NCBI RefSeq assembly: GCF_014190875.1
Contig: NZ_JACHVS010000002.1
Coordinates: 558,001-622,000, forward strand
DNA: 64,000 nucleotides
DNA from: Paeniglutamicibacter cryotolerans
GTDB taxonomy: Bacteria > Actinomycetota > Actinomycetes > Actinomycetales > Micrococcaceae
Reading direction: 5' to 3'
Numbering within the stretch: the first letter of the stretch is position 1; the number at the start of each line of letters is the position of its first letter. Below the pieces are notes generated by a model that saw only the letters and a program-made list of their open reading frames with translations, had not been told where the DNA came from and did no database searches. This document shows positions 4,656-18,636 of this stretch, piece by piece. The translations under genes were made by a program, and so were the position numbers.

Positions 4656-5828
4656 TCAGACGGTCCGGGCCAGCGCCGCGAGCAGGTCCTTGGCCCGGCG
4701 GTCCCGGTCCTCGGGCTGCATCTCGTTGGTCAGGAACGAGAAGCCCACGTTCTTTCCCGGCCAGGCGCCATGGAGCCCGCCGCCGGCCCCCGAGTGCCCG
4801 AACGCCGGGGTGACCGGGCCGTAGCTGCCCAGCGGGTCGGCGAGCTCATAGCCGAGTCCGAAGCGCAGCGGCCGGTCGTTGATGGCGTCCACACCCTCGG
4901 ACCAGGTCGCCGTCGAGGTCCGCAGCGTCGCGGGCGAGACCAGGGCAGGGGTGGGCGAGGCAAGATGCGAATACAGGGCCGCCATGGCATCGGCGGTGGC
5001 AATGCACCCGCCGGCCGCCAGCTCGGCGCGGCGCATGTCGACCGAATTGACCGGATCGCCTGGCCCGGTCAGCGAGTTCCCGTACATCCGTTCAACGATC
5101 TTGCGGCGTTCCGGGTCTTGCAGGAAGGTGCTGATGGCATAGTCGGAGGAGCGGAAGACCGTGGCCAGGCGCCCGTCAAGGGCCGCGGGCAGGCCCAGAT
5201 GCAGCTCCAGCGAGAGCGGTTCGGCGACCAGCTCCCGGAATAGCTGCCCGGGACCCTTGCCGGTGACCCGGAAGAAGAGCTCGGCGGTCAGGTAACCGTA
5301 GGTCAACGCATGGTAGGCGACCTTCGTGCCGGGTTCCCACAGGGTTTCCTGGGCAGCAAGGGCCGCGGCCTGCGCATGGTTGTCATAGCGGTCTTCGGGC
5401 GCCTGATCCACATAGGCCAGGCCCACGGTATGGCTGAGTACCTGGGCGACGGTGACCCGTTCCTTGCCCGCCGCGGCGAATTCCGGCCAGTAGGAGGCGA
5501 CGCTCGCCGCCGGATCAAGCAACCCGCGGTCGATCAGGATCGCGGCAACCGTTGCGACAACGCCTTTGGTGCCGGAGAACAGCACCGCCATCGTCTCCTG
5601 GGTCCAGGGTCCGGGTTCGGCCGCTCCCTCGGCCGGGGAACCTCCGGGCCGGACGGTGCTGCCGCCGTGGAAGCGGGCCAGCGGCCTGCCCTCGCGGTAG
5701 ACACAGAAGGACATTCCTCCCTCGATAGCCGCGAGGTGCCGGGAAAACACCTCGGCCAGGGCATCGAAGCCGGCCTGCGGTAGTCCGTCGTTGTGGGCTG
5801 TGGCAAGTGATTCACGTGATGCTGTCAT
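4656..5828 (-). CDS. class C beta-lactamase-type serine hydrolase, last gene of the carnitine operon
   Basis: The 390-residue protein has the three active-site motifs of the beta-lactamase/esterase EstB superfamily: SGTK (nucleophile Ser85, Lys88), Tyr173 in VAYHALTYGY, and HSGAGG (His345) replacing the KTG triad. There is no signal peptide, so it acts inside the cell and is more likely an esterase or amidase than a beta-lactamase. It starts 10 bases after the ATPase gene and closes an operon for carnitine breakdown. In Pseudomonas, caiX-cdhCAB is followed by hocS, an acylcarnitine hydrolase of a different fold. By position I infer that this enzyme may release carnitine from acylcarnitines. 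Confidence 0.8.
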   Translation of the reverse strand: MTASRESLATAHNDGLPQAGFDALAEVFSRHLAAIEGGMSFCVYREGRPLARFHGGSTVRPGGSPAEGAAEPGPWTQETMAVLFSGTKGVVATVAAILIDRGLLDPAASVASYWPEFAAAGKERVTVAQVLSHTVGLAYVDQAPEDRYDNHAQAAALAAQETLWEPGTKVAYHALTYGYLTAELFFRVTGKGPGQLFRELVAEPLSLELHLGLPAALDGRLATVFRSSDYAISTFLQDPERRKIVERMYGNSLTGPGDPVNSVDMRRAELAAGGCIATADAMAALYSHLASPTPALVSPATLRTSTATWSEGVDAINDRPLRFGLGYELADPLGSYGPVTPAFGHSGAGGGLHGAWPGKNVGFSFLTNEMQPEDRDRRAKDLLAALARTV

Positions 5829-5838
5829 TGCTGGCTCC

Positions 5839-7575
5839 TTAGAAGGTCGGGACGTTGGCCAGGAGTTCCTGGGTGTAGCTGTGCCGCGGGTTGTTCAGTA
5901 CCTCGTCGGTGGCGCCGATGTCGACGATCTTGCCCTTTTGCAGCACTGCCAAGCGCTGGGAGATATGCCGGGCCAGGGCGATGTTGTGGGTGACGAACAA
6001 CATCGACATGCCGTGCTCGACCTGCAGCGTACGCAGCAGGTCGAGGATCGATGCCTGCACCGAGACGTCAAGCGCGCTGGTGATCTCGTCGCAGACCAGC
6101 AGCGATGGCGCATTGACCAAGGCCCGGGCGATGGCGGCGCGTTGGCGTTCGCCGCCGGAGAGGTCGCCGGGGCGGCGGTCCATGTAGCGTTCGCCGAGCC
6201 GGACCTGGTCAAGTGCCTCAACGACCAGCGCGCGGCGCTTGCGTTTGTCGTGGATGCCCGACATCTGTAGCGGAACCCCCACCGAGTCGGCGATGCTCCG
6301 GCGCGGATTCAGCGAGGAGAAGGGGGACTGGAAGATGTACTGTACCCGGCGCCGGTCCTCGGATGAGCGCTCCCGGGTGCCAGGTGCCAGTTCCTCGCCG
6401 AAGAGCCTGACCGACCCGGTGTAGGCGTCGTTGAGCCCGGCGACGCAGCGCGAGAGCGTGGTCTTGCCCGATCCCGATTCGCCCAGCAGCATCATCGATT
6501 CGCCCTCGAGCAGTTCGAAGCCGATCCCGTCAAGCACCCGGTGCCGGCCGTAGGCCAGGGCCAGATCCTCCAACCGCAGCAGCGGCACGGCGGTGCCGGC
6601 TGGTTCGCCTGTGTGTGGCGGAGTTGGCTCAAGCAACTTCGCGTCATCAATCCGGACCGTGGTGGAGGTGGTGTCGGGGTTTCCGTGCGGGCCCGGGATG
6701 ATCAACGGATGTTCCCCGGTGATCGCCTCCACCTCGCCGACCCGGCGCTTGCCGGCCAGGTCGGGGACGGCACGCAACAGCTTGCGCGTGTACTCGTGGC
6801 GGGGGGAGTAAAGTACCTGTTTGGTGGGTCCCTGTTCCACGATGTCGCCCTCGAGCATCACCGCCACCTCGTCCGCGACGACAGCGACGACCGCCAGGTC
6901 GTGGGTGATGTAGAGCCCGGCCGTCTGGTGGCGTTCGGCCAGCTCGTTGATGGTCTTCAACACCAGTGCCTGGGTGGTGACATCGAGTCCGGTGGTCGGC
7001 TCGTCGAGCACGATGACGGCGGGGCGGCAGGCGAAGGCCATCGCGATTCCCACGCGCTGCTGCTGCCCTCCGGAGAGGTGGTGCGGGTAGCGGCGCAGGT
7101 AGGCGGCGTCATTGGCCAGGCCCACCTCCGCCATGACCTCGGCGACGCGTTGGAGGCGTTCGGCCTCGGAGGAGCCGAAGTGGTGGACGCGCAGTGTCTC
7201 GGCGATCTGCTCACCGATCCGCATGGCCGGGTTCAGCGAGAGCGAGGGGTCCTGCGGGACGTAGGCGATGTCTCCGCCGCGCAGCAGCCGCAGCTTGTGC
7301 TCGGGCAGCGCCAGGATGTTCGCGCCCCCGCCGCCGTTTAGCGTGACGGACCCCGAGGCCAGGCGCAGGCCCTGCCTGAAATGGCCCAGGCAGGCAAGAC
7401 CGGCGGTGGTCTTGCCCGAACCGGACTCGCCGACCAAGGCCAGGATCCGGCCCGGGCGCAACGTGAATCCGATCCCGTGCAGGATCTCGACCCCGGCCGT
7501 CGTCTCGACCCTCAGGTCGGCGGTGGCCAGCGTGCTGGCGACCAGTTCCTTGTCCAGGACATCGGTGTTCATCAT
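5839..7575 (-). CDS. ABC transporter ATP-binding protein, two fused nucleotide-binding domains (Dpp/Opp type)
   Basis: The 578-residue protein joins two ABC ATPases, like DppD and DppF fused. Each half has a Walker A (GESGSGKTT), a signature (LSGGQQQR in the first, LSGGERQR in the second) and a Walker B ([16 protein letters not shown]). Each half ends with the oligopeptide-family extension ([22 protein letters not shown]). It powers the importer formed by the two permeases and the binding protein upstream. It begins at the first ATG of ATGATGA, whose A overlaps the stop of the preceding permease, so translation is coupled. The open frame extends farther upstream, antisense-like, inside the permease. 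Confidence 0.93.
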
Positions 7576-8456
7576 CAGTTCCCCGCATTCAGGTTCGCCG
7601 AGGCCCGCGCGAGCGAGTCGGTCAACAGGTTGGTTCCCACGGTCAGCACCGCAATGGCAAGCACCGGCAGGAGCACGCCCCAAGGCTGGATGGACAAGGC
7701 GATCCGGTTCTCGTTGATCATCAGGCCCCAGTCGGCAGTGGGCGGTTGCATGCCCAGTCCCAGGAAGGACAGCGAGGCGACGAAGCCGATGGAGTAGGTC
7801 ATGCGCAGGCCGAGCTCGACCATGAGCGGGCCGGTGATGTTCGGCAGCACCTCGGTGAGCAGTACCCTCCACTTGGGTACCGCATACATCTCGCTGGCCC
7901 TGATGTAGTCCTCGGTGATCACCGCGGCCGTGGCCGAGCGGGTCACCCGGGCGATGCGCGGTGCGTGGGTGATGCCGATGACCACGACCAGCACCCAGCC
8001 CTGCGGGCCAAGCACGGTGATGGCCAGCAGTGCGAAGACCAGCTGTGGCAGCGCCAGCAGCACGTCGTTGCCACGCATGATCAGTGCGTCGGCCCGGCCT
8101 TTTGAATAGGCGGCGACCATTCCCACGGCGACTCCCACGGTCATGCCCAGCAGCGTTGCCAGGGCGGAGTAGGCGATCAGCCGCAGCCCGCCGTCCAGGA
8201 AGCGGGAGAGCACGTCGCGGCCCAGGTTGTCGGTGCCGAACAGGCCTACCGGCTTGAACGGGCGGCCGGTGAACTCGGTACTGCTGTGCCCGGTGAGCCA
8301 GGGCAGGGTCAGTGGGCCGAGCAGCGCGATGGCCAGCACGATCAGCGTGAGCACCATGCCGATCTTGGCCTGGCGCTGGCGCATCATCCGGGCGAAGAGC
8401 CTCGGCGGGCGCTTGAGCTGACCGGTGGTTTCACGATCTGCTTGAAGGACGCTCAT
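7575..8456 (-). CDS. ABC transporter permease, DppC/OppC type
   Basis: The 293-residue inner-membrane protein has the OppC-like N-terminal region (residues 1-70, one membrane segment), then five more segments. The EAA loop GITHAPRIARVTRSA touches the ATPase. The family motif FGTDNLGRDVLSRFLDGG precedes the transmembrane core. It pairs with the DppB-type permease; starts and stops overlap by 4 bases upstream (ATGA) and 1 base downstream. Confidence 0.93.
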   Translation of the reverse strand: MSVLQADRETTGQLKRPPRLFARMMRQRQAKIGMVLTLIVLAIALLGPLTLPWLTGHSSTEFTGRPFKPVGLFGTDNLGRDVLSRFLDGGLRLIAYSALATLLGMTVGVAVGMVAAYSKGRADALIMRGNDVLLALPQLVFALLAITVLGPQGWVLVVVIGITHAPRIARVTRSATAAVITEDYIRASEMYAVPKWRVLLTEVLPNITGPLMVELGLRMTYSIGFVASLSFLGLGMQPPTADWGLMINENRIALSIQPWGVLLPVLAIAVLTVGTNLLTDSLARASANLNAGN

Positions 8457-9412
8457 CTCACTGCCTCCGTGCGTAGTTTCGGATTGGTCATGATGCCCAC
8501 CAGGTCGGCGAGCAGGTTCACCACGATGTAGGCCGCGGCAATAAGGATCGACAGCGCCTGGACCACCTGCACGTCGCGGTTGGTCACCGCGTCGACCAGT
8601 GCCTGCCCCACGCCCGGGTAGCGGAAGAGGAACTCGATGACCACGACGCCGCCGGCCATCCAGGCCAGCTGCATCGCGATCACCTGGGCGACGGGGGCCA
8701 GCGCGTGCGGCACGGCATGCCGCATGATCACGTCGCGTTCGGGAACGCCCTTGAGCCGGGCCATTTCAACGAACCCGGAATCGAGCACCTCGATCATCGT
8801 GGCGCGCATCATCCGGGCGATGTACGGGGTGACCACCAGGGCCAGGGTGAGTGTTGGCAGGATCAGCTGGATCGGGTAGTTCCAAACGGCCTCTCCGGGA
8901 GGGGCCATGGTCACCGACGGCAGGATCTTGAAGACCGAGGTGGAAAGCAGCGTGATCAGTCCCAGGCCGATCACGAACTCCGGCAGCGAGGCGAGCACCA
9001 GCGAGAATCCGGTGGCGGCGTGGTCGAAGGCCTTTCCGCGCTTGAGCGCCGAGAACGTGCCGATGAGGATTCCCGCCGGGATGGTGATCAGTGCCGCCAG
9101 GCCCATGAGCACCAGCGAGGCCTGGATGCGATCGCCGAGCAGCTCGGACACCGGGCCGCCGGATGCCGCCGAGAAGCCGAGGTTCCCGGTGAGCAGGCCC
9201 CCGAGCCAGCTCAGGTAGCGCTGCCAGACCGGGTCGTTGAGGTTCATCTGTTCGCGCAGCGCGGCCAGCCGCTCGGGGGTGGCCTGCTGGCCCAGGATGG
9301 CCTGGGCCGGGTCCCCGGGAAGCAGCAGCGTGGCAACGAACACCAGTAGCGAGACGGCGAAGAGGATCACGAGGCTGACCAGCAGCCGTCGGACCAGCAG
9401 CTTGAGAATCAT
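8453..9412 (-). CDS. ABC transporter permease, DppB/OppB type
   Basis: The 319-residue membrane protein starts MILKLLVRRLLVSLVI, the usual DppB first membrane helix, followed by LLPGDPAQAILGQQATPE, the conserved periplasmic-side motif. The EAA-type loop is YIARMMRATMIEVLDSGFVE. I chose ATG 9412 because it overlaps the binding-protein stop as ATGA; a long upstream extension in the same frame is antisense-like and lies inside the binding-protein gene. Confidence 0.93.
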   Translation of the reverse strand: MILKLLVRRLLVSLVILFAVSLLVFVATLLLPGDPAQAILGQQATPERLAALREQMNLNDPVWQRYLSWLGGLLTGNLGFSAASGGPVSELLGDRIQASLVLMGLAALITIPAGILIGTFSALKRGKAFDHAATGFSLVLASLPEFVIGLGLITLLSTSVFKILPSVTMAPPGEAVWNYPIQLILPTLTLALVVTPYIARMMRATMIEVLDSGFVEMARLKGVPERDVIMRHAVPHALAPVAQVIAMQLAWMAGGVVVIEFLFRYPGVGQALVDAVTNRDVQVVQALSILIAAAYIVVNLLADLVGIMTNPKLRTEAVR

Positions 9413-11010
9413 GATGAAACTCCGATCCATGCGCGGCGGAACTCGAAGCCGGAAAGTGCAAGCCCGGTCTTGTTTGGGATCAGCCCCGCGACATAGCGCT
9501 GGTAGGCGTCCGCCTGGTTGGGATGGCCCCAGATGATGTAGCCACCGCGTTCGTATTCGATTTCCTGGGCCCTGGTGATCAGTGCATTGCGCTTGGCCTC
9601 GTCCACCGTGGTGGCGGCCTCCTTGACCAGCGCGGTGAACTCGGGGTCGTCCCAGTGCGTCTCGTTGAACGGGGAGGTCGGCAGCGAGGAGCTGTTGACC
9701 TGGGGGAGGAAGTTGCGGGTGTACCAGAAGTCCTGGGCAAAGGTCCAAGACAGGTAGTCGTCGCCGAAGAACGTGGTGGTGTCGACCCGGCGGATCTTGA
9801 CCCGGATCCCGGCCGCCGCCGCCTGCTGGGCGAAGACCTGGGCGGCTTCCACCGCACCGGCCTGGATCGGTGCGGTGACCAGTTCGATGTCCAGCCCCTT
9901 CGGGTAGCCGGCCTCGGCAAGCAGCGCCTTGGCCTGGGCGATGTCCTGGGTGCGCTGGGGCAGGTTCCTGGCAAAGCCGGGATCGAACGGGGCATAGAGG
10001 TCGTTGCCGATGGTGCCGTTGCCGCTGAGCACCTGTTCGATCATCTGTTCCCGGTCAACCGCCAGCCGGAACGCCTGGCGGACCCGCACGTCGTCGAACG
10101 GCTTCTGGTCCAGCCGCATGGTGAACGGCAGCCAGGCACCGGTTTCCGAGTTGAGGATGTCGATGCGCGGGTCGGCTGAAATCACCTCGAGCAGCGCCAG
10201 CGGGATCTGCCCGATGGCATCGACCTGGGTGGAAAGCAGCGCGTTGATCAACGCGTCGTCATCGGAGAAGTTCAGGATCACCAGCTCATCCAGGTGCGGT
10301 TCGTTCTCGCGCCAGTACTCCTCGTTGCGGGTGAACACCGACTGGCGCCCGGGGTCGAAGCCGGAGGCCTTGAACGGACCGGTGCCGATGGGCTTGCTGA
10401 CATCGAAGTCGGCCGGCACGATCCCCAGCGCGTACTGGCCCAGCGAGTCGTCGAACGTGGCGGTCGGCGTATTCAGGCGGAACTCCACCACCGAGTCGCT
10501 GATGATCGCCACTTCCTCGAGGATGCTCAGCGCCGCGGCACCGCTCTTGGGGTCATCCGGATTGGTGACCCGGGCGAACGTGGCAACCACGTCCTGGGCC
10601 GTGACCGGTCGCCCGTCGTGGAACTTCACCCCCGGCCGCAGCTCGACCTTCCAGTTCAAGGCCTTCGCATCCGGTGTGGCACTCAGGGCCAGCAGCGGGG
10701 TGAGCACGAAGTCCTCGTTGCGGTAGAGCAGGGACTCGTAGAGGTTCACCACCCGGGCGATGTCGGTGGTGCTGACCGGGCTGTGCGGGTCAAGCGAGTC
10801 GGCGGACCCGCCGCCGGCCAGCCCGACCCGCAGCGTCCCGCCGCGTGCCGGTGTTCCGGTGGGTGCGGCCAGCACCGCTGCTGCGGTGGAACCGCAGGCG
10901 CTGAGCAACAGGCCCATGCCCAGGGCCAGGGAGCCGCCCAGGATGGCGCGGCGGGACGGTGCTGGGCCTGCGCCCGGCGGGAAGTGCCATGGTGATCGAT
11001 CGGAGGTCAA
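9409..11010 (-). CDS. ABC transporter substrate-binding lipoprotein, family 5 (oligopeptide type)
   Basis: The 533-residue protein has a twin-arginine-like stretch (SRRAILGGSLALGMGLLLSAC) ending in a lipobox with Cys39, so it is probably exported and lipid-anchored. The mature part is a family 5 solute-binding protein: GGTLRVGLAGGG, the NLYESLLYRNEDF strand, LRPGVKFHDGRPVTAQDV and FKLAVD-like FRLAVDREQMI. These proteins bind peptides, nickel, opines or other small organic ligands. Sitting inside a carnitine-breakdown operon, its ligand may be carnitine, an acylcarnitine or a related quaternary amine; that is inference. Confidence 0.9.
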   Translation of the reverse strand: MTSDRSPWHFPPGAGPAPSRRAILGGSLALGMGLLLSACGSTAAAVLAAPTGTPARGGTLRVGLAGGGSADSLDPHSPVSTTDIARVVNLYESLLYRNEDFVLTPLLALSATPDAKALNWKVELRPGVKFHDGRPVTAQDVVATFARVTNPDDPKSGAAALSILEEVAIISDSVVEFRLNTPTATFDDSLGQYALGIVPADFDVSKPIGTGPFKASGFDPGRQSVFTRNEEYWRENEPHLDELVILNFSDDDALINALLSTQVDAIGQIPLALLEVISADPRIDILNSETGAWLPFTMRLDQKPFDDVRVRQAFRLAVDREQMIEQVLSGNGTIGNDLYAPFDPGFARNLPQRTQDIAQAKALLAEAGYPKGLDIELVTAPIQAGAVEAAQVFAQQAAAAGIRVKIRRVDTTTFFGDDYLSWTFAQDFWYTRNFLPQVNSSSLPTSPFNETHWDDPEFTALVKEAATTVDEAKRNALITRAQEIEYERGGYIIWGHPNQADAYQRYVAGLIPNKTGLALSGFEFRRAWIGVSS

Positions 11011-11056
11011 GGTCTGCTCGTTTCGTCGGTGGAACCGGATGTCCGTCAGATGGGTC

Positions 11057-11497
11057 TCACGCCGTGATGGATCGGCCGCTCCATTCGGGGATCTGCTGCC
11101 CGATGGCCGCGATGGCAGCCAACACGGGTTCGGGGAAGGGCGAGGTGGACCCCGATGCCGTATCCACGTGCAGGCCCAGGATCTCCTCGGTGGCGATCAA
11201 TGTCCCACCGGTACGCATTTCGTGTGCCAGATGCAGCTTCTTGGCCCCGGAGGACGCGATGGTGGTGGTGATTTCCAGGTCGTCGTCCAGCCCGGCCTCG
11301 AGCAGGTAGCGCACATGGGCCTCGACCGTGTAGAGCGAAGCGGCCTGGTTGTCCCGGTATGCCTCGTCCATGCCGAGGTGGTCCATGGCCGAGGTGGTGG
11401 CGAAGCCGAAGGCGAGCACGTAGAAGGCCTCCGACATGTGCCCGTTGTAATCGATCCACTCGGGCAGCACCCGGGCGGTGTAGGCGGGAAGGCTCAT
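11057..11497 (-). CDS. cdhB: hotdog thioesterase, probable betainyl-CoA thioesterase
   Basis: The 146-residue protein has a 4HBT-type hotdog fold: VLPEWIDYNGHMSEAFYVLAF carries the Asp-x-x-x-H-M active-site motif, and TVEAHVRYLLEAGLDDDL is the second conserved strand. In Pseudomonas CdhB splits betainyl-CoA, made from dehydrocarnitine, into glycine betaine and CoA. The identity here rests on its place directly after the carnitine dehydrogenase, whose stop it overlaps by 4 bases (ATGA). The gap to the next gene is 46 bases. Confidence 0.75.
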   Translation of the reverse strand: MSLPAYTARVLPEWIDYNGHMSEAFYVLAFGFATTSAMDHLGMDEAYRDNQAASLYTVEAHVRYLLEAGLDDDLEITTTIASSGAKKLHLAHEMRTGGTLIATEEILGLHVDTASGSTSPFPEPVLAAIAAIGQQIPEWSGRSITA

Positions 11498-12465
11498 GTC
11501 CCGGGTACCGCGACGGGGGACATGCTCGGTGCCAGGGCCCGGCGGATGGCGATGATGCCGGCGTCGCGTTCGGCGATCAGCTCGCTGAACAACCGGCCGT
11601 CGGCCTCGTCGTCGCAGCCGTCGATGACCCGCTGGCGCAGTTCGGGGGTCAGCTCCGGTGCGGTGAGGCGGGTCCAGGGGGATTTGAGCGAGGGGCCGAA
11701 ATGATCGAGCATGTGGGCCATGCCGCCCTCGCCGCCGGCCAAGTGGAAGGTCAGCATCGGGCCTTGGACCGGCCAGCGCAGACCCGGACCTTCGGTAATG
11801 GCGAGGTCGATCTGCTCGACTGTCGCCTCGCCGTTGTCCACCATGTGCAGCGCCTCGCGCCACAGTGCCTCCTGCAGCCGGTTGGCGATGAATCCGGGGA
11901 TCTCGCGGTCCATGGAGATGACCGACTTGCCGATGTATTCATACCAGCCGGCGGCCCATGCCGTGGCGTCCGGTTCGGTGGCTTCGCCGCCCACGACCTC
12001 CACCAGCGGGATCAGGTACGGCGGGTTGAAGGGGTGCCCGACGACCAGTCGGGAGGCGTCGACGGCGGTGGTCGCCATGTCGCTCATCGCATAGCCTGAG
12101 GTCGAGGAGCCGATGACCACATCGGGGCCGGTGGCGCCGGCGAGCCGGGCGAGCAGGTCCTGCTTCAGTTCGAGGACTTCTGGCGCGCTTTCCTGGATGA
12201 ACCCGGCACCCCTGAGCGCTTCGGCCAGGTCGGTGTGGACGGTGAAGTCATCAGGTGAGGCGCCGTCGGACAGTCCCAGTTCGGTCAGCGCCGGCCATGC
12301 CGCGTCGATGAGCCGGCGCAGCTTCTGACCGGCGTCCGGGGACGGGTCCCAGACCCGGACACTCAGGCCACGGGAGAGGAAGTAGGCGGCCCAGCCGCCA
12401 CCGATGGTGCCGGCGCCGATGCAGGCGACGGTGGTGATGTCCTGGTATTCAGGGAAGTTCCCCAT
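11494..12465 (-). CDS. cdhA: L-carnitine dehydrogenase (3-hydroxyacyl-CoA dehydrogenase family)
   Basis: The 323-residue cytoplasmic enzyme has a Rossmann NAD site at the start (GAGTIGGGWAAYFLSRG), the SSTSGY loop, and HPFNPPYLIPLVEVVGG holding the catalytic histidine and substrate loop, followed by GFIANRLQEALWREALHMV. This set of motifs fits L-carnitine 3-dehydrogenase (carnitine to 3-dehydrocarnitine) better than a fatty-acid enzyme, and the neighbours, a beta-keto acid cleavage enzyme and a thioesterase, agree. It starts 3 bases after the upstream stop. Confidence 0.82.
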   Translation of the reverse strand: MGNFPEYQDITTVACIGAGTIGGGWAAYFLSRGLSVRVWDPSPDAGQKLRRLIDAAWPALTELGLSDGASPDDFTVHTDLAEALRGAGFIQESAPEVLELKQDLLARLAGATGPDVVIGSSTSGYAMSDMATTAVDASRLVVGHPFNPPYLIPLVEVVGGEATEPDATAWAAGWYEYIGKSVISMDREIPGFIANRLQEALWREALHMVDNGEATVEQIDLAITEGPGLRWPVQGPMLTFHLAGGEGGMAHMLDHFGPSLKSPWTRLTAPELTPELRQRVIDGCDDEADGRLFSELIAERDAGIIAIRRALAPSMSPVAVPGT

Positions 12466-12468
12466 GGT

Positions 12469-13356
12469 TCAGTTCCCCTGTCCGAGGTTCAGGATTTCGC
12501 GGGCTTCGTCCGGTGTTGCAACTGATGAGCCCATCGACTCGACGATCGTGATGGCGCGTTCGGTCAGCTGGACGTTGGTGGCCAAGACACCCTTTGACAA
12601 GTAGAGGTTGTCCTCGAGCCCGACGCGCACGTGCCCGCCGAGCGCCACCGACTGGGCTACCCACGGCATCTGGTTGCGTCCGATGGCGAACGAGGTCCAC
12701 TGCGCGCCATCGGGCAGCATGTTCACCATGGCCTGGAGGAGGCCCGGATTTGCCGGTGCGCCGTAGGGGATGCCCATGCAGATCTGGTAGAGCGGCGGGG
12801 GTGCCAGCAGGCCCTCGGCGACCATGACGTTGGCGAACCAGAGGTTACCGGTGTCGAAGACTTCCATTTCGGGTTTCACGCCCAGTTCCCGGATCCGGGC
12901 GGCGCCCTCGCGCAGCATGTCGGGGGTGCTGACGTAGAGCTGCGAGCCCTCGCCGAAGTTCAGCGAGCCGCAGTCGATGGTGCAGATTTCCGGGCGCAGT
13001 TCCTCCACGTGGGCCAGGCGCTCCAGCCCGGAGACAAGGTCCGTGCCGGGCAGCTGGACTGTGGGGTTCGAAGGGTCGATGAACAGGTCACCGCCCATCC
13101 CGGCGGTCAGGTTGATGACCGGATCCACGTCGGATGCCTTGATCTGGCGAACCACCTCGCGGTACAGCGCAACGTCGCGGGAGCCCTGCCCGGTGGCCAC
13201 GTCGCGGACGTGGATGTGGACCACCGATGCGCCGGCGCGGGCCGCGGCGATGGCATCGGCTGCAATCTGGTCGGGGGTGACCGGGACGTTGCCGCTCTTG
13301 CCGGTGGTGTCCCCGGCGCCGGTCAGGGCGCAGGTGACAATGACCTTACGACTCAT
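12469..13356 (-). CDS. cdhC: 3-dehydrocarnitine cleavage enzyme (BKACE, DUF849 family)
   Basis: The 295-residue protein is a beta-keto acid cleavage enzyme: [20 protein letters not shown] at the N-terminus, the zinc-binding VVHIHVRD, and the later INLTAGMGG and [12 protein letters not shown] motifs. BKACE enzymes transfer the acetyl end of a beta-keto acid to acetyl-CoA; with dehydrocarnitine they give acetoacetate and betainyl-CoA. Operon order (cdhC, cdhA, cdhB) matches that known from Pseudomonas. Its ATG overlaps the regulator stop by 4 bases. Confidence 0.85.
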
Positions 13357-14231
13357 GCTGTTGCTCCTTTGTGAGTGATGATCGTTCTGTCGATGAAGGC
13401 ACTAATGTTTGCGAACATTTGAGTTGAAGTCAGGATTCCGGTGAGCACCTTGATGCCCATGCCATCGACCATGGCAGTGAGTTCTGCGGTGAGTGTGGCT
13501 GCATCCACCGCCACGAAGTGGCCACTGGCCTGCCCGGCCTCGATGACGTCGTGGACGGTGGAGGTCCAGCGCCCGTATCCGGGGGAGTGGGTATCCAGGC
13601 CGGTCTCGTTCACGGCGAGCTTGGTCCAGGTCTGCAGCCAGATCGACCATTCGGCGCGACCCTCGGAGCCTGTGGGCAGCTGTAGTTCAATGAGCCGCTT
13701 GAGCTTGGCCGCAGGGTCGGTGATCGGCTGTAGTTCGGCGATCTGGCGGTCGTAGGCAAGTTTCACCGAGTAACGCAGCGTCTCTGTGAAGAGCGCCTGC
13801 TTGTTCGGGAAGTAGTAATGGACGGTGGGCGTACTGATGCCGATCGATGCGGCGATGTCGGCCATCCTGACCGCGGTGAAGCCGCGCTCGGAGAAGAGCC
13901 ACCAGGCATGTTCGGTGATGCTTCTGCGGCGCTGGGCATGCTTGTCATCCTCGCTGTGGTGTTGCGGGAGGATGCCCTGCGGCGGAATGCTCGAGGGGCC
14001 CGGCGCCGAATCGGAACCGGTGATGAGCCAGTTGGCAGTCACCCCGGTCACCGTCGCCAGCAGGACGATTTCCTCGGCGGTGATCTTCCGGGTTCCGGTC
14101 AGCGATTTGGACAGCTTCGTTTCCTCGACGCCGATCCGGCGCGAGATCTCGCGCTGGGCCAGGCCCGAGGTGCGGATTGCCTCGCGGACCCGCCCCGCCA
14201 ATTCATTGTGTCCCGCATCACTTTGCAGCAT
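13353..14231 (-). CDS. double-HTH regulator: Xre domain fused to a TetR domain
   Basis: The 292-residue protein has an Xre/Cro-type helix-turn-helix at residues 9-65 ([20 protein letters not shown] is the recognition part). After a Pro/His-rich linker comes a full TetR regulator from about residue 95: [20 protein letters not shown], then [17 protein letters not shown] as recognition helix, and a TetR ligand domain to the end. It is the first gene of the carnitine operon, so it probably senses a pathway compound and controls the operon and itself. The start ATG is at 14231. The open question is whether both DNA-binding parts are used. Confidence 0.85.
13405..13420. promoter_or_regulatory. candidate operator inside the regulator's 3' end, ahead of cdhC
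   Basis: AATGTT and AACATT are separated by four bases (the 16-bp palindrome occupies about 13404-13419). It contains ATGTTTGCGA, a 10-mer also found in the promoter region of the regulator. It lies about 50 bases before the cdhC start. It also encodes residues of the regulator, so it may be coincidence. Confidence 0.35.
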
Positions 14232-14248
14232 GAGGCCACGCTACGGGC

Positions 14249-14270
14249 ATGTTTGCGATTTTGGCAAGCA
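14249..14270 (-). promoter_or_regulatory. promoter and candidate operator of the carnitine operon
   Basis: TGTTTGC and GCAAGCA form an imperfect inverted repeat with a 7-base spacer, overlapping a possible -35 (TTGCCA on the minus strand, about 14260-14265); TAGCGT, 18 bases on, could be the -10. The half ATGTTTGCGA recurs at 13405-13414. It sits 18 to 39 bases before the regulator's start codon. Confidence 0.45.
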
Positions 14271-14281
14271 TTTTTATCGTG

Positions 14282-14942
14282 ACTCAGAAATGAGTTGCGA
14301 TTATGTGAGCTAATGTGATCCACGCAGCCGATGCCCGATGACGCGCCCTGCGCTCGCATCTGCACAGGCCTGGCTCCCGTCGCCTTGCCGCCCGTAGGTG
14401 GCCGAAAAACCCCGGAAACCAGAGGTTTTTGAAGCATTGTTTTGACGGGGCTTGAGCCCGGAACCCGAAGGCGACCTGCAGCTGGAAATGGCCCGGAGCT
14501 GAACCGCGCCGGGGTGGAAACCATCGGTCAGGGGACCGGGGCCAGGTGCGTGTCGCAAACCTCGGCGCATTCCGGCAAAACCGGCCGGTAGATCCATCCC
14601 AGGGGGAAGCAGGGTTTCGGCGCCGGGGTCCGCCGGATGAAAAACCCGGCGGGCACCGCAAGCGTTGTGTTCCGAAGCCAAGTATTCCGTGGCGTTGTTC
14701 CGTATTTTGGAATCCTTGGCTCCCTGCAGACCCGGAAATCAATTGGCCATGCCATGACGCCCTGGGACCTTAAGGTCGCCGACCGCGTGGAGGATGCGGT
14801 CCCGGGATATGAATCCGGTCCCTGTTTCCTGGCTTGCTGCACCCCGCATCGAACAGGGGGCAGTGGGCGCTACAACAGGCCACGGCATTGCGTGAGCTGA
14901 CGCGCTGCGCATCCTGGATCCGGCCCGGCGGGTAAACTTCGC
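14282..14942. other. 660-base stretch without a recognisable gene
   Basis: Frames are short on both strands and I recognise no domain in them. The GC content is a little lower than in the flanking genes. I see no IS ends or RNA genes. Confidence 0.6.
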
Positions 14943-14965
14943 ATGATGAAGGATTTGGAAAAGAA

Positions 14966-15784
14966 TTGATCGGGATCACAACGAGGACCTCCCCACTGGA
15001 ATCGCAGCTGAGCGCATCGCACGACGCGTTTGTGGCCGGGCGCCCGCTGGACGCCGATGAGGACGTGCACATGCTCCCGGACATTGTCGACCACGTCATT
15101 GAACGATGCAGCAACCGGGGGGACCTGGTATTCGATCCCTTCGCAGGTTTTGGCACCACCGTCGTGCGGGCCCTGGCCCTGGGGCGCGAAGCGCTCTGCA
15201 TTGAACTGCTGCCCGAACGCGTGGACTACCTGAGCAAGCGGGTGCCCGGCGCACGCGTGATCGAGGGCGATGCCAGGGAGCTGCTCAGGATCATCCGCAA
15301 TATCGAACCGCCCCAACCCGATGCCAGCATCGACCTCATCCTGACCTCTCCGCCCTACATGACCGCCGAGCATCACGAGGCCGACCCCCTCACCGCCTAC
15401 GAGGAAGACAACGGAGACTACGCCCGCTATCTGGAGGAGCTCGGACTTGTTGCCGCCCAGTGCGCCCGGGCGATCGTGCCCGGCGGCTTCGTGGTGTGGA
15501 ACCTGGCAGATATCCACCACATGGGCAGCACCACCCACTTGATCCGCGATTGCACGCGCGTGCTCGCCCAATACCTCACCCCCGTGGGGCTCACCGAGAT
15601 CGTGTGGGACCGTTACCCCCACGATCTGGTGGCCGACGCCTTGCTGGTGTTCCGGCGGACCCCGCTTGGCGGAACGGGTAGGCCAGCGGGACCGAACTTC
15701 CCCGGTCAGCGGCGGGCGCGGCGGCCGAGTACGAGTCCGAGGGTGAACGCCAAGGCGAGCAGCCCGGCGCCGATGATCAGATAG
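14966..15784 (+). CDS. orphan DNA methyltransferase (DPPY/SPPY type)
   Basis: The protein of 272 residues or so has DLVFDPFAGFGTTVVRALALG as the S-adenosylmethionine loop, VIEGDARELL, and TSPPYMTAEHH as the catalytic motif, followed by GGFVVWNLADIHHMG. The order (SAM motif, then SPPY) fits beta-class amino-methyltransferases for N4-cytosine or N6-adenine, or the related TRM11-like group. An in-frame stop at 14933 leaves only a TTG start (14966), preceded by GGAAAAG. No restriction gene is nearby. The last 26 residues are read through the opposite-strand membrane gene and lack conservation signs, so the original end may lie nearer 15690. Confidence 0.75.
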   Translation: MIGITTRTSPLESQLSASHDAFVAGRPLDADEDVHMLPDIVDHVIERCSNRGDLVFDPFAGFGTTVVRALALGREALCIELLPERVDYLSKRVPGARVIEGDARELLRIIRNIEPPQPDASIDLILTSPPYMTAEHHEADPLTAYEEDNGDYARYLEELGLVAAQCARAIVPGGFVVWNLADIHHMGSTTHLIRDCTRVLAQYLTPVGLTEIVWDRYPHDLVADALLVFRRTPLGGTGRPAGPNFPGQRRARRPSTSPRVNAKASSPAPMIR

Positions 15785-16011
15785 CCCGTGATCTGTGGGC
15801 CGGTGACAAACGTGGATCCCACCAGCTGGTCCAGCCCGGATTCGCCGAGGGGAGCATACCCGAACCAGCCAAAGTCCTCTGCGGGTTGCACCAAGGCCAA
15901 CGTGATCACCCCTGCCACCACCAGGATCGCGGCAATGCCGCACCCGACCGGGGCAGCCAGGGGTCGGGTGCGCCGTGGCGAAGCCCCGGCGTTCGAAAAG
16001 TCATTGGTCAT
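15706..16011 (-). CDS. small membrane protein, two TM segments
   Basis: The 101-residue protein has a membrane helix at about residues 21-43 and another at about 72-94, and a basic C-terminus (GRRARR). AAGGATGG lies just upstream of the ATG at 16011, a good binding site. Its 3' end overlaps the methyltransferase's 3' end on the other strand by 79 bases. I do not recognise the family and no function is inferred. Confidence 0.65.
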   Translation of the reverse strand: MTNDFSNAGASPRRTRPLAAPVGCGIAAILVVAGVITLALVQPAEDFGWFGYAPLGESGLDQLVGSTFVTGPQITGYLIIGAGLLALAFTLGLVLGRRARR

Positions 16012-16159
16012 GGTCCCATCCTTGCAGGTCACACCCGCAGGCCCTCGAATGTGAAGAGCCTGGCCCCGGCCCATCCCGAGTTCGGGTCGGGCCGGGCATC
16101 CGGCCTGGGCCCCGGATCTCTTATGCTGGTGAGTCGGACCGATCGGTGAGGAGTACTCG

Positions 16160-16812
16160 ATGGCATTTTCAGGACAAGAACGTTTGTGGGCACTCGCGCA
16201 CGCCGAGCGCGAGGCCTTGGCCCGGGATCTTTCCGGCCTCACGGCCGGTCAATGGAACCACGGCACCCTGTGTGGGCGCTGGAGTGTCCAAGACGTCGTG
16301 GCCCACCTGACGGCGGCGGCCAGCCTGAACCAGTGGCAGTGAATGCGAAGCATGCTTGGCGCCGGTTTCCGATCCGATGTGCATAACCTGCGCAGGCTCA
16401 CCGAGCATCGGGGCGACACTCCCGCCGAGACCCTGGCGCGGTTCCGCGCCATCATCAACAGCACCACGGCGCCCTCTTCGCATACCCCGGCCTACCTGGG
16501 CGAGGCCCTGGTCCATGCCCAGGACATCCGCAGGCCACTGGGCCTACCCCGGACGCCCGGCGTCGAGGCATTGACTCCCGTGGCCGAATTCTTCGCTGGC
16601 AGGGACTTCGCCGTTCCCGGCCGCACCCGGGCCAAGGGTCTGCGCTTGAGTGCCACCGACGGGCCGTTCGCCGCCGGCACCGGGCCCTGGTTGAAGGAGC
16701 GGCCCTCGCCCTCGTGATGACCATGACCGGCCGGAATGCCTGCATCGGAGACCTCCAGCGCCCCGGGCTCGAGCTGCTGCTCCGCCGCCGCCTTGAAGCT
16801 ATCGAAGGTTAA
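16160..16812 (+). pseudogene. DinB/maleylpyruvate isomerase-like protein (TIGR03083 type), broken twice
   Basis: The reading frame starts MAFSGQERLWALAHAERE and continues with CGRWSVQDVVAHLTAAAS, the DinB-like four-helix motif. It stops at TGA 16340-16342, within QWQ-stop-MRSM where a tryptophan (TGG) would fit. It resumes in the same frame to about 16690, then needs one extra base to continue as VEGAALALVMTMTGRN through LLLRRRLEAIEG and a TAA at 16810. One nonsense and one single-base deletion mark it as decayed. Family members are metal-dependent, mycothiol-linked isomerases or transferases. Unless both lesions are sequencing errors the gene is dead. Confidence 0.8.
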
Positions 16813-16875: not shown

Positions 16876-17505
16876 CTAGTTCCCGCGGTCAATCCATTCC
16901 TGCAGCTGCGGCGACTCGGCACCGATGCTGGTGGAATCACCGTGGCCGGTATTCACCACTGTCTCCTGCGGAAGCGAGAACAGGCGCTCGGATATCGACT
17001 CGATGATCGTCTCGAAGCTCGAGTAGCTGCGCCCGGTGGCGCCGGGGCCGCCGTTGAAAAGCGTGTCACCGGAGAATACGGTGCCCAGGTCCTGCACGTA
17101 GAAGCACGTGGAACCGGGGGAGTGGCCGGGGGTATGCAGGGCACGCAGCTGCGTCCCGGCAACCTCGAACACGTCGCCATCGGCGATTTCGGCATCCGGC
17201 GTGGTGCCCGGGAAGACGTCTTCCCAGAGCATCTGGTCCGCGGGGTTCATGAAGACCGGTGCCTTGACCAGGTCGGCGAACTCGCGGGCGTAGCGGATGT
17301 GGTCATCGTGGCCGTGGGTCAGCAGCACCGCCTTGACGGTGCGCTCTCCCACCGCCTCGGCGATGGCCGCCGGGTTGTGGGCGGGGTCGATCACGTAGAC
17401 CTCGGCGTCGTCGCCGATGATCCACACGTTGTTATCGACGTCCCAGGTGCCGCCGTCCAGGCTGAAGGTGCCCGAGGTGACCAGGTTCTGGATCTGAGCC
17501 GGCAT
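16876..17505 (-). CDS. MBL-fold metallo-hydrolase of the mycothiol/formaldehyde operon
   Basis: The 209-residue enzyme has THGHDDHI (HxHxDH zinc motif), HTPGHSPGSTCFYV with the third zinc ligand, SGDTLF with the bridging aspartate, and a final NTGHGDST histidine, as in glyoxalase II. It overlaps the stop of the mscR-like gene by one base (TAATG). This gene pair is standard in actinobacteria, where the hydrolase is thought to split the S-formylmycothiol made by MscR; that role comes from context. Confidence 0.85.
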   Translation of the reverse strand: MPAQIQNLVTSGTFSLDGGTWDVDNNVWIIGDDAEVYVIDPAHNPAAIAEAVGERTVKAVLLTHGHDDHIRYAREFADLVKAPVFMNPADQMLWEDVFPGTTPDAEIADGDVFEVAGTQLRALHTPGHSPGSTCFYVQDLGTVFSGDTLFNGGPGATGRSYSSFETIIESISERLFSLPQETVVNTGHGDSTSIGAESPQLQEWIDRGN

Positions 17506-18590
17506 TAGAGCTCGACCACCGAACGCAGGACCTTGCCCTCGCCCATCTTGGTGAATGCAGCCTCGATGTCGCCCAGGCCGATGCGCTCGGTAACGAACGC
17601 ATCCAGGTCCAGGCGGCCGAGCTTGTACTGCTCGACCAGCATCGGGAAGTCGCGTGAGGGAAGGCAGTCGCCGTACCAGGAGGACTTCAGCGAGCCGCCG
17701 CGGCCGAACACGTCGAGCAGCGGGAGTTCCAGCTGCATCTCCGGGGACGGAACGCCGACCAGGACGACACGGCCGGCCAGGTCGCGGCCGTAGAACGCCT
17801 GCTTGTAGGTCTCCGGGCGGCCAACGGCCTCGATGACCACATCGGCGCCGAAGCCCTTGGTGTGCGACTGGATGCCCGCGACTGCGTCTTCCTTGCGGGA
17901 GTTCACCGTGTGGGTGGCACCGATCTTCTTGGCCATTTCCAGCTTCTCGTCGTCGATGTCGACGGCGACGATGGTGGTGGCACCGGCCAGCTTGGCGCCG
18001 GCGATGGCGGCAATGCCGACGCCGCCGCAGCCGATGACGGCAACGGACTCGCCGCGCTTGATCTCACCGGTGTTCATGGCGGCACCGATGCCGGCCATGA
18101 CGCCGCAGCCGAGCAGGCCCACGGCAGCCGGATCGACGTCGTCGTCGACCTTCGTGCACTGGCCCGCTGCAACCAGCGTCTTTTCGGCGAACGCACCGAT
18201 ACCCAGCGCGGGGGACAGCTCGGTGCCGTCCTCCAACGTCATCTTCTGGGTGGCGTTAGCGGTGTTGAAGCAGTACTGCGGCTGCCCCTTGGCACAGGCG
18301 CGGCACTGTCCGCAGACGGCGCGCCAGTTCAGGATGACGCGGTCGCCGACGGCAACCTCGGAGACGCCATCGCCGATGGCAGAGACCACGCCGGTGGCCT
18401 CGTGGCCCAGCAGGTACGGGAACTCGTCCCCGATGCCGCCGTGCTTGTAGTGCAGGTCCGTGTGGCAGACGCCGCAGGTCAGGATGTCAACCAGGGCCTC
18501 GCCCGGTCCGGGGTCGGGGACCACGATGGTCACCAATTCGACCGGCGCATCCTTTGCCATGACGACAACGGCCTTGACCTTGTGAGACAT
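17505..18590 (-). CDS. mscR: S-nitrosomycothiol reductase / mycothiol-dependent formaldehyde dehydrogenase
   Basis: The zinc alcohol dehydrogenase of 361 residues has the class III-like catalytic zinc region [14 protein letters not shown] and [15 protein letters not shown], the structural zinc cysteines in [15 protein letters not shown], and the NAD loop [10 protein letters not shown]. The sequence follows MscR/AdhE2 proteins, which oxidise S-hydroxymethylmycothiol and reduce S-nitrosomycothiol, so the cell makes mycothiol. I chose ATG 18590 because GAGGAG lies 6 bases before it; a TTG four codons upstream is less likely. Confidence 0.9.
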
Positions 18591-18636
18591 GAGACTCCTC
18601 AAAACTGTGTACCGCCTGGGCGGTTTTGCTTAACGG

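Follow-up and report, generated by a model that had tools for sequence, protein, structure and literature searches.

Gene content and organisation of the operon

A stretch of 64,000 nucleotides from Paeniglutamicibacter cryotolerans (contig NZ_JACHVS010000002.1, positions 558,001 to 622,000, hereafter the window) carries nine co-directional genes on its minus strand, at positions 4656–14231. It is very probable that these genes form an operon for the uptake and breakdown of carnitine or its esters. The first-pass annotation had described a regulator, cdhC-, cdhA- and cdhB-like genes, a four-part importer and a serine hydrolase. All nine were located, and both this order and the coordinates are confirmed.

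The first gene (13353–14231, minus strand, as are all the features below) encodes a fusion of XRE and TetR regulators with a BetI-type C-terminal domain (PF01381, PF00440, PF13977). It is preceded by a putative operator, TTGCCAAAATCGCAA (14253–14267), a 15-base copy of a conserved motif that forms the imperfect palindrome TTGC-N6-CGCAA. The three genes of the catabolic core follow. These encode a BKACE assigned to the dehydrocarnitine (CdhC) subgroup (12469–13356; PF05853, 331.7 bits), a 3HCDH-family enzyme resembling L-carnitine dehydrogenase of the CdhA type (11494–12465), and a 4HBT thioesterase of the CdhB type that is a candidate betainyl-CoA thioesterase (11057–11497; PF13279). The importer consists of a family-5 solute-binding lipoprotein (SBP_bac_5; 9409–11010; PF00496, 264 bits), two Opp/Dpp-type permeases of the BPD_transp_1 family (permease 1, 8453–9430, PF00528 and PF19300; permease 2, 7575–8456, PF00528) and a fused ATPase with two ATP-binding cassette (ABC) domains (5839–7572; PF00005 twice, PF08352). 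The last gene (4656–5828; PF00144) encodes a beta-lactamase-fold serine hydrolase, a candidate acylcarnitine esterase. With the start codons chosen, there is a 4-base overlap at three of the junctions and a separation of 2–10 bases at three others. The permease 1 and lipoprotein genes overlap by 22 bases, and the widest intergenic gap, between the thioesterase and the binding protein, is 46 bases.

Relatives were searched in 99 genomes, with a close dehydrogenase orthologue being one with an E value below 1e-160. Such an orthologue is present in 9 of the 15 genomes of the genus, that of the window included, and the other eight all have the nine-gene order. The complete operon, again in the same order, is also present on the 138-kb Citricoccus plasmid NZ_CP039425.1 (L063). 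Conservation in 8 out of 8 congeners and on this plasmid suggests that the gene order is more than chance, and the plasmid location suggests that the unit can travel. The operon is also found in five more genomes from the same family, where the dehydrogenase is 73–77% identical to that of the window. Three of these are complete with nine genes, one lacks the window-type hydrolase (G051), and one has the dehydrogenase split over two frames (G048). In G083, from the same order, only the regulator, BKACE and dehydrogenase are found at the locus. Across the phylum the distribution is patchy, since 17 of 396 sampled genomes, including that of the window, have a dehydrogenase match at an E value of 1e-45 or better. 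No paper on this operon type was seen among those listed by the literature searches.

Wider comparisons are based on 80 named core loci, each around a dehydrogenase orthologue and together the best 80 of 347. The named relatives include Paeniglutamicibacter sulfureus, P. psychrophenolicus and P. gangotriensis, which suggests a place for the window within this genus or beside it. The tree of these loci and the window has 80 rows after removal of one that was too short. Label counts exclude four truncated loci and therefore cover 76.

The catabolic core and a second dehydrogenase–BKACE pair

The core can be assigned to the carnitine pathway with high confidence from its sequence relationships. 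By trees and residue signatures, the window BKACE and dehydrogenase side with proteobacterial carnitine enzymes and not with a second such pair in the same genome. The closest companion of the window enzyme in the BKACE tree comes from a Caballeronia caiX operon, and the BKACE of S. meliloti belongs to the wider group. The Caballeronia operon runs caiX-like gene, cdhC, cdhA, cdhB, and the last three are 64, 47 and 38% identical to the window BKACE, dehydrogenase and thioesterase, respectively. Residues His47, His49, Glu248, Arg244 and Asp249 are present in the window BKACE, and we take these, from the Kce structure, to be its metal-ligand and catalytic residues. Within the carnitine-type clade Gly15 is found in all rows and Asp16 in 93%; the window enzyme has both.

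The window dehydrogenase belongs to a clade that is sister to the one containing the annotated carnitine dehydrogenases, inside the starred group of 32 of the 43 rows. It shares twelve signature columns with six carnitine references, and at each of these columns six or more of eight other enzymes differ. The residue numbering known for carnitine dehydrogenase could not be transferred. The thioesterase matches the thioesterase half of the fused carnitine 3-dehydrogenase PRK07531, and a thioesterase–dehydrogenase fusion is present in 19 of the 80 named loci.

Works cited in PMC12482172 describe a S. meliloti enzyme with two activities, oxidation of carnitine and formation of glycine betaine from betainyl-CoA; this enzyme may not be the product of the S. 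meliloti gene in the trees here. Conversion of L-carnitine to glycine betaine by Brevibacterium linens is attributed to a 1998 study in PMC5979481. In B. linens ATCC 9172, which may not be the strain of that study, the core adjoins an orthologous regulator and has the thioesterase fused to the dehydrogenase (L164), while the importer lies apart from the core with an operator identical to that of the window (L194). The carnitine reading of the core is thus well supported by the trees, the subgroup residues, the relatives partnered with caiX, OpuC or BCCT genes, and the cited B. linens phenotype, and nothing that would refute it was encountered.

Plasmids of Parasedimentitalea (L065) and Aminobacter (L066) also carry a dehydrogenase and a BKACE, 53% and 57% identical to those of the window. 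Their neighbours are an ABC importer, a crotonase-type gene and genes for an acyl-CoA dehydrogenase and a CoA ligase family protein. These plasmids perhaps encode a route from butyrobetaine to carnitine.

Some observations weigh against the carnitine assignment of the core. The window dehydrogenase scores 327 bits with the L-carnitine dehydrogenase (CdhA) model PRK07066/NF005471, under its curated cut-off of 414, and by that rule is not counted as a member. The genome also contains a second dehydrogenase–BKACE pair, at about 2.0 Mb on C1 (L034, C1 1997000–2016500, positions 7552–16204), and which of the two is the carnitine pair therefore had to be tested. Lastly, the tree program gave a long-branch warning for the second dehydrogenase and the far BKACE clade. 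Also in this second cluster are a Rieske oxygenase, a TetR regulator, SDR-like genes and a BCCT carrier. The presence of the cluster and the low PRK07066 score of the window dehydrogenase would fit a window core whose substrate is a different 3-hydroxy quaternary or amino acid, the second cluster being the true carnitine locus. The second BKACE, however, is in the far clade of the tree, passes the 3,5-dioxohexanoate model with 508 against a cut-off of 430, and has Ile and His where the carnitine-type clade has Gly15 and Asp16. Its partner dehydrogenase scores 271 bits with PRK07066, less than the 327 of the window enzyme, is placed outside the carnitine clade on a long branch, and deviates in 11 of the 12 signature columns. 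On the model scores, the trees, the BKACE subgroup residues and the dehydrogenase signature columns, L034 was rejected as the better carnitine locus, and this alternative is considered very unlikely.

Importer, operator and terminal hydrolase

With its SBP_bac_5 lipoprotein, pair of BPD_transp_1 permeases and single ATPase that has two ABC domains, the importer has the composition of the Opp/Dpp/Nik (PepT) type. None of the NCBIfam binding-protein and permease models was over its cut-off for the importer components. On reading of its sequence the lipoprotein has a twin arginine and a lipobox, with Arg20, Arg21 and Cys39 invariant in 33 aligned orthologues.

The importer is present in the fetched stretch of 42 of the 80 named core loci, and in four (L111, L118, L120 and L123) it is upstream rather than downstream of the core. 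BCCT genes show up in 10 of the 38 fetched stretches that lack the importer and in 1 of the 42 that have it. Thirty-one genomes were searched whole, and in 29 of these the core has no adjoining importer. These included 19 of the 22 such Brevibacterium genomes (all but L113, L140 and L154), 7 of the 11 with BCCT loci (all but L107, L109, L132 and L145) and three of six Streptomyces. An importer orthologue was found elsewhere in 18 of the 19 Brevibacterium genomes, one of these with an internal stop and one partial, in one of the seven BCCT genomes, itself also a Brevibacterium, and in none of the three Streptomyces. The match in L149 is weak, at 36% and with a stop. On the strength of the 18 Brevibacterium genomes, the idea that loci without an adjoining importer lack one altogether was rejected. 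The importer stretch was read in 16 of the 18 Brevibacterium genomes (all but L134 and L147); L207, in which the importer adjoins its core, was set aside. Where all genes were called, the Brevibacterium units consist of a regulator homologue (29–35% identical to that of the window), the binding protein, two permeases and the ATPase. Importer units that lie apart from a core, these included, could serve the uptake of carnitine or its esters as osmolytes.

The regulator has an orthologue in 73 of the 80 named loci. In the window, 21 bases separate the operator from the regulator ATG, and the start looks leaderless from its sequence; a promoter scan found none. The operator copy is unique in the genome, even allowing one mismatch. 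The palindrome TTGC-N6-CGCAA occurs between -150 and +60 of the regulator start in 34 of the 73 loci, where 0.005 is expected per 210 bases, an expectation that includes the motif's own matches. It is found in 30 of 40 importer loci compared to 4 of 33 others, in a comparison that ignores ancestry. In the Brevibacterium importer stretches apart from the core it is upstream of the binding protein in 15 out of 16, a regulator homologue being called there in 14 of the 15, and in 10 of the 16 the 15-mer is identical to that of the window. Among seven other stretches examined the motif is present in L191 only, giving a total of 16 out of 23. The regulator homologue of L187 has XRE, TetR and BetI-type domains, and that of L188 has TetR and BetI-type domains with no XRE match at threshold. 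Because the operator motif is common to the importers of core operons and to the Brevibacterium importer units apart from the core, the XRE-TetR type of regulator seems to be tied to the importer. In the window, both importer and core would be under its control.

The hydrolase has a hydrophilic N-terminus without a signal sequence, as read from its residues, and should therefore be cytoplasmic. Ser85-x-x-Lys88, Tyr172 and His345 are invariant in 28 out of 28 sequences, and we take the Ser-x-x-Lys and Tyr motifs to have the role that they have in beta-lactamase-fold esterases. A profile of 28 hydrolase sequences was compared with solved structures. Among the best 60 of 113 matches, five EstA-type esterases (8j5v, 5gkv, 5gmx, 7y3z and 3zyt) come out on top with 177–261 bits over near full length, and they share the Ser-x-x-Lys and Tyr motif; no link of these to carnitine was seen. 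The next match is EstB (1ci8) at 57 bits, with the remainder lower and the peptidases among these 60 matches at about 50. The class C beta-lactamase model NF033085 gives 19.9 bits, under its cut-off of 415. The PF00144 fold, the motif and the esterases as nearest kin are consistent with an esterase of the family VIII type.

In the 42 importer loci the window-type hydrolase is found in 27 and an alpha/beta hydrolase in 11, with both together in none and neither in four. Two of these four (L097 and L101) break off within the ATPase at the end of a contig; in L103 and L148 no hydrolase is seen. In the 38 loci without the importer there is one window-type hydrolase and no alpha/beta type. A hydrolase of either kind is therefore present in 38 of 42 importer loci against 1 of 38 others (Fisher 4e-17, ancestry ignored). 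On the tree, the type of hydrolase among importer loci has changed at least 3 times and the presence of the importer at least 4 times. Seven of the 11 alpha/beta hydrolases are behind the ATPase, that of L114 being cut by the contig end. Of the nine within operons, five were scanned and all are Abhydrolase_3. The genes of L099 and L105 are instead Abhydrolase_1 and share 38–39% identity with the hydrolase encoded at a carnitine locus of Novosphingobium. As divergent upstream genes with no usual GxSxG motif, these two were downgraded as stand-ins. An orthologue of the window hydrolase is present in 16 of the 99 genomes, where it belongs to the operon in 13 and lies outside it in 3, and in 8 of the 31 genomes searched whole, five of the 8 being Brevibacterium.

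Other findings speak against a fixed partnership of importer, hydrolase and core. There are only 3–4 independent importer–hydrolase contrasts on the tree, too few for significance, with none in the opposite direction. The alpha/beta hydrolases of L108 and L112 lie between the thioesterase and the binding protein, and those of L099 and L105 are divergent, upstream of the regulator. Binding protein orthologues occur in 21 of the 99 genomes, 14 in the operon and 7 outside it. G019 and G065 (L186 and L187) have an importer and hydrolase unit with no cdh core in the stretch, in L187 with its own XRE-TetR regulator, and neither genome has a close dehydrogenase orthologue; their best matches are at 3e-20 and 41% identity. 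The stand-alone importers of G049, G030, G092 and G069 show no hydrolase in the fetched stretch. Of the 16 Brevibacterium stretches, L208 and L209 have a window-type hydrolase close to the importer, and L195, L196 and L197 have one of the alpha/beta kind. BLAST with the chosen queries found no hydrolase in the other 11, although the L188 genome has one about 20 kb away.

One explanation for the importers without a hydrolase is that the core is indeed for carnitine while the importer takes free carnitine or other betaines, the hydrolase having a side role, such as on intracellular carnitine-like esters. The 11 Brevibacterium units and the four stand-alone importers would fit this. So would the apparent interchangeability of importer and BCCT genes, as BCCT carriers are described in PMC5979481 as transporting carnitine and betaines. 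The difference in hydrolase presence between loci with and without the importer argues in the other direction, and from what is known of the family a family-5 binding protein is large for free carnitine. This explanation is judged unlikely.

It is highly improbable that the importer brings in peptides and that the hydrolase is a D-amino-acid or peptide hydrolase included in the operon by chance. The Opp/Dpp family names of the importer components, the importer–hydrolase units without a core nearby and the inclusion of peptidases in PF00144 could all be read in this way. Yet it is other esterase families and BCCT genes that take the place of these genes in relatives, the structures nearest to the hydrolase are esterases rather than peptidases, and the operator motif and regulator type are common to the importer units and the core operons.

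Uptake and cleavage of carnitine esters are the more probable functions of these genes. The importer is assigned with good confidence to the carnitine pathway by the sequence comparisons. Its proposed role as an acylcarnitine transporter gains from the exchange with BCCT genes and from the shared operator. The idea that it is dedicated to this role loses ground, with 7 of the 21 orthologues outside the operon and two of them beside a hydrolase in genomes without a close dehydrogenase orthologue. For the serine hydrolase, the suggested acylcarnitine esterase activity is favoured indirectly, by the other hydrolase families that occupy its place in relatives and by the five esterases that are its closest structures. 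On family, position and replacement patterns, a candidate acylcarnitine esterase is the best-supported reading.

Related systems and the proposed pathway

The first-pass comparison with Pseudomonas caiX-cdhCAB-hocS agrees with PMC5806209. According to this paper and to PMC5979481, the P. aeruginosa operon has the same catabolic steps in the order C-A-B, along with a dedicated binding protein and a short-chain acylcarnitine hydrolase, of which the window has candidate counterparts. The systems differ in that CaiX serves the CbcWV transporter, whereas a complete Opp-type importer is inside the window operon, and in that P. aeruginosa has a divergent AraC-family activator in contrast to a co-directional XRE-TetR regulator. 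The window has no CaiX-type binding protein or AraC-family regulator, having SBP_bac_5 and XRE-TetR proteins instead, and its beta-lactamase-fold hydrolase is in the place of HocS.

Plasmid 1 of Paracoccus denitrificans PD1222 (L172, 5447–13696) resembles the window in having a BKACE, a carnitine 3-dehydrogenase, a four-gene family-5 importer and a hydrolase in last position. Unlike the window, it has a long dehydrogenase (485 amino acids), a GlxA-family regulator and an Abhydrolase_3 hydrolase, and its binding protein, 33% identical to that of the window, is between the BKACE and the dehydrogenase. Staphylococcus epidermidis (L170, 5436–12846) has the same co-directional series of TetR regulator, BKACE, dehydrogenase, thioesterase, ABC importer and hydrolase, but the importer is of the betaine/osmoprotectant type and the hydrolase is a PF00756 esterase. 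The gene table of the L170 record lists no gene for the dehydrogenase stretch.

Acylcarnitines are common animal metabolites. The human mitochondrial filament protein LACTB, a beta-lactamase-like serine enzyme, has the same broad fold as the window hydrolase, and the recombinant protein cleaves succinylcarnitine to carnitine, as stated in a 2026 preprint (PMC13405478). LACTB is not among the hydrolase matches listed, either in the best 60 of 68 or in the best 60 of 113, and is therefore a fold-level precedent only. On the bacterial side, the consulted excerpt of PMC2131755 names Corynebacterium, Bacillus and other organisms as sources of acyl-L-carnitine esterases but gives no gene for them, and that of PMC5806209 states that the P. 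aeruginosa enzymes for hydrolysis of medium- and long-chain acylcarnitines were not identified.

Taken as a whole, the window probably holds an aerobic carnitine-use operon with an importer, a cytoplasmic esterase, a dehydrogenase–BKACE–thioesterase route and XRE-TetR repression. Gene content and order, family and subgroup placement, the operator motif and the exchanges of hydrolase and transporter are read from the sequences; from these we infer the substrates, the repression and its ligand, and the ester as the form imported. The lipoprotein-dependent ABC importer would take up carnitine, and probably also its short-chain O-acyl esters, from which the cytoplasmic beta-lactamase-fold serine enzyme would free L-carnitine. 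The dehydrogenase would then oxidise L-carnitine to 3-dehydrocarnitine, from which, with acetyl-CoA, the BKACE would form betainyl-CoA and acetoacetate. The final step would be the release by the thioesterase of glycine betaine, an osmolyte that the products of other genes in the genome probably demethylate to glycine. The XRE-TetR regulator would repress the operon from the palindrome that precedes its own start codon, until an imported ligand of the quaternary ammonium kind releases it.

Elsewhere the genome encodes two GbcA/GbcB-like pairs (386 and 415, and twice 236 bits, under cut-offs of 670 and 500), a BCCT carrier, soxB (626 against a cut-off of 529), serine hydroxymethyltransferase and formyltetrahydrofolate deformylase. 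With these genes present, demethylation of glycine betaine is plausible. In L184 (6657–11964) a GbcA/GbcB-like pair adjoins an OYE-family oxidoreductase, for which the best model is of the mycofactocin type, below its cut-off. Elsewhere in the window (16876–18602) a zinc alcohol dehydrogenase is followed by a metallo-beta-lactamase-fold protein, which could serve for the formaldehyde from betaine demethylation. This arrangement resembles what we take to be a mycothiol-dependent formaldehyde dehydrogenase pair.

A broader proposal, for which the chances are somewhat short of even, is that an ABC importer of the peptide type, dedicated to intact acylcarnitines, evolved in the Actinobacteria along with a cytoplasmic acylcarnitine esterase of the beta-lactamase fold. 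This esterase would be the functional equivalent of LACTB in bacteria, and its role would have been refilled repeatedly by unrelated hydrolase folds, also in the Proteobacteria and Staphylococcus. If true, LACTB would have bacterial company, its direct cleavage of succinylcarnitine being known from the preprint. The replacement of the ester-cutting gene by unrelated predicted esterases in relatives makes the beta-lactamase-like enzyme a testable acylcarnitine esterase candidate. The operon thus points to an esterase family and an importer with a shared operator that can be put to the test, for which the natural replacements would be built-in controls.

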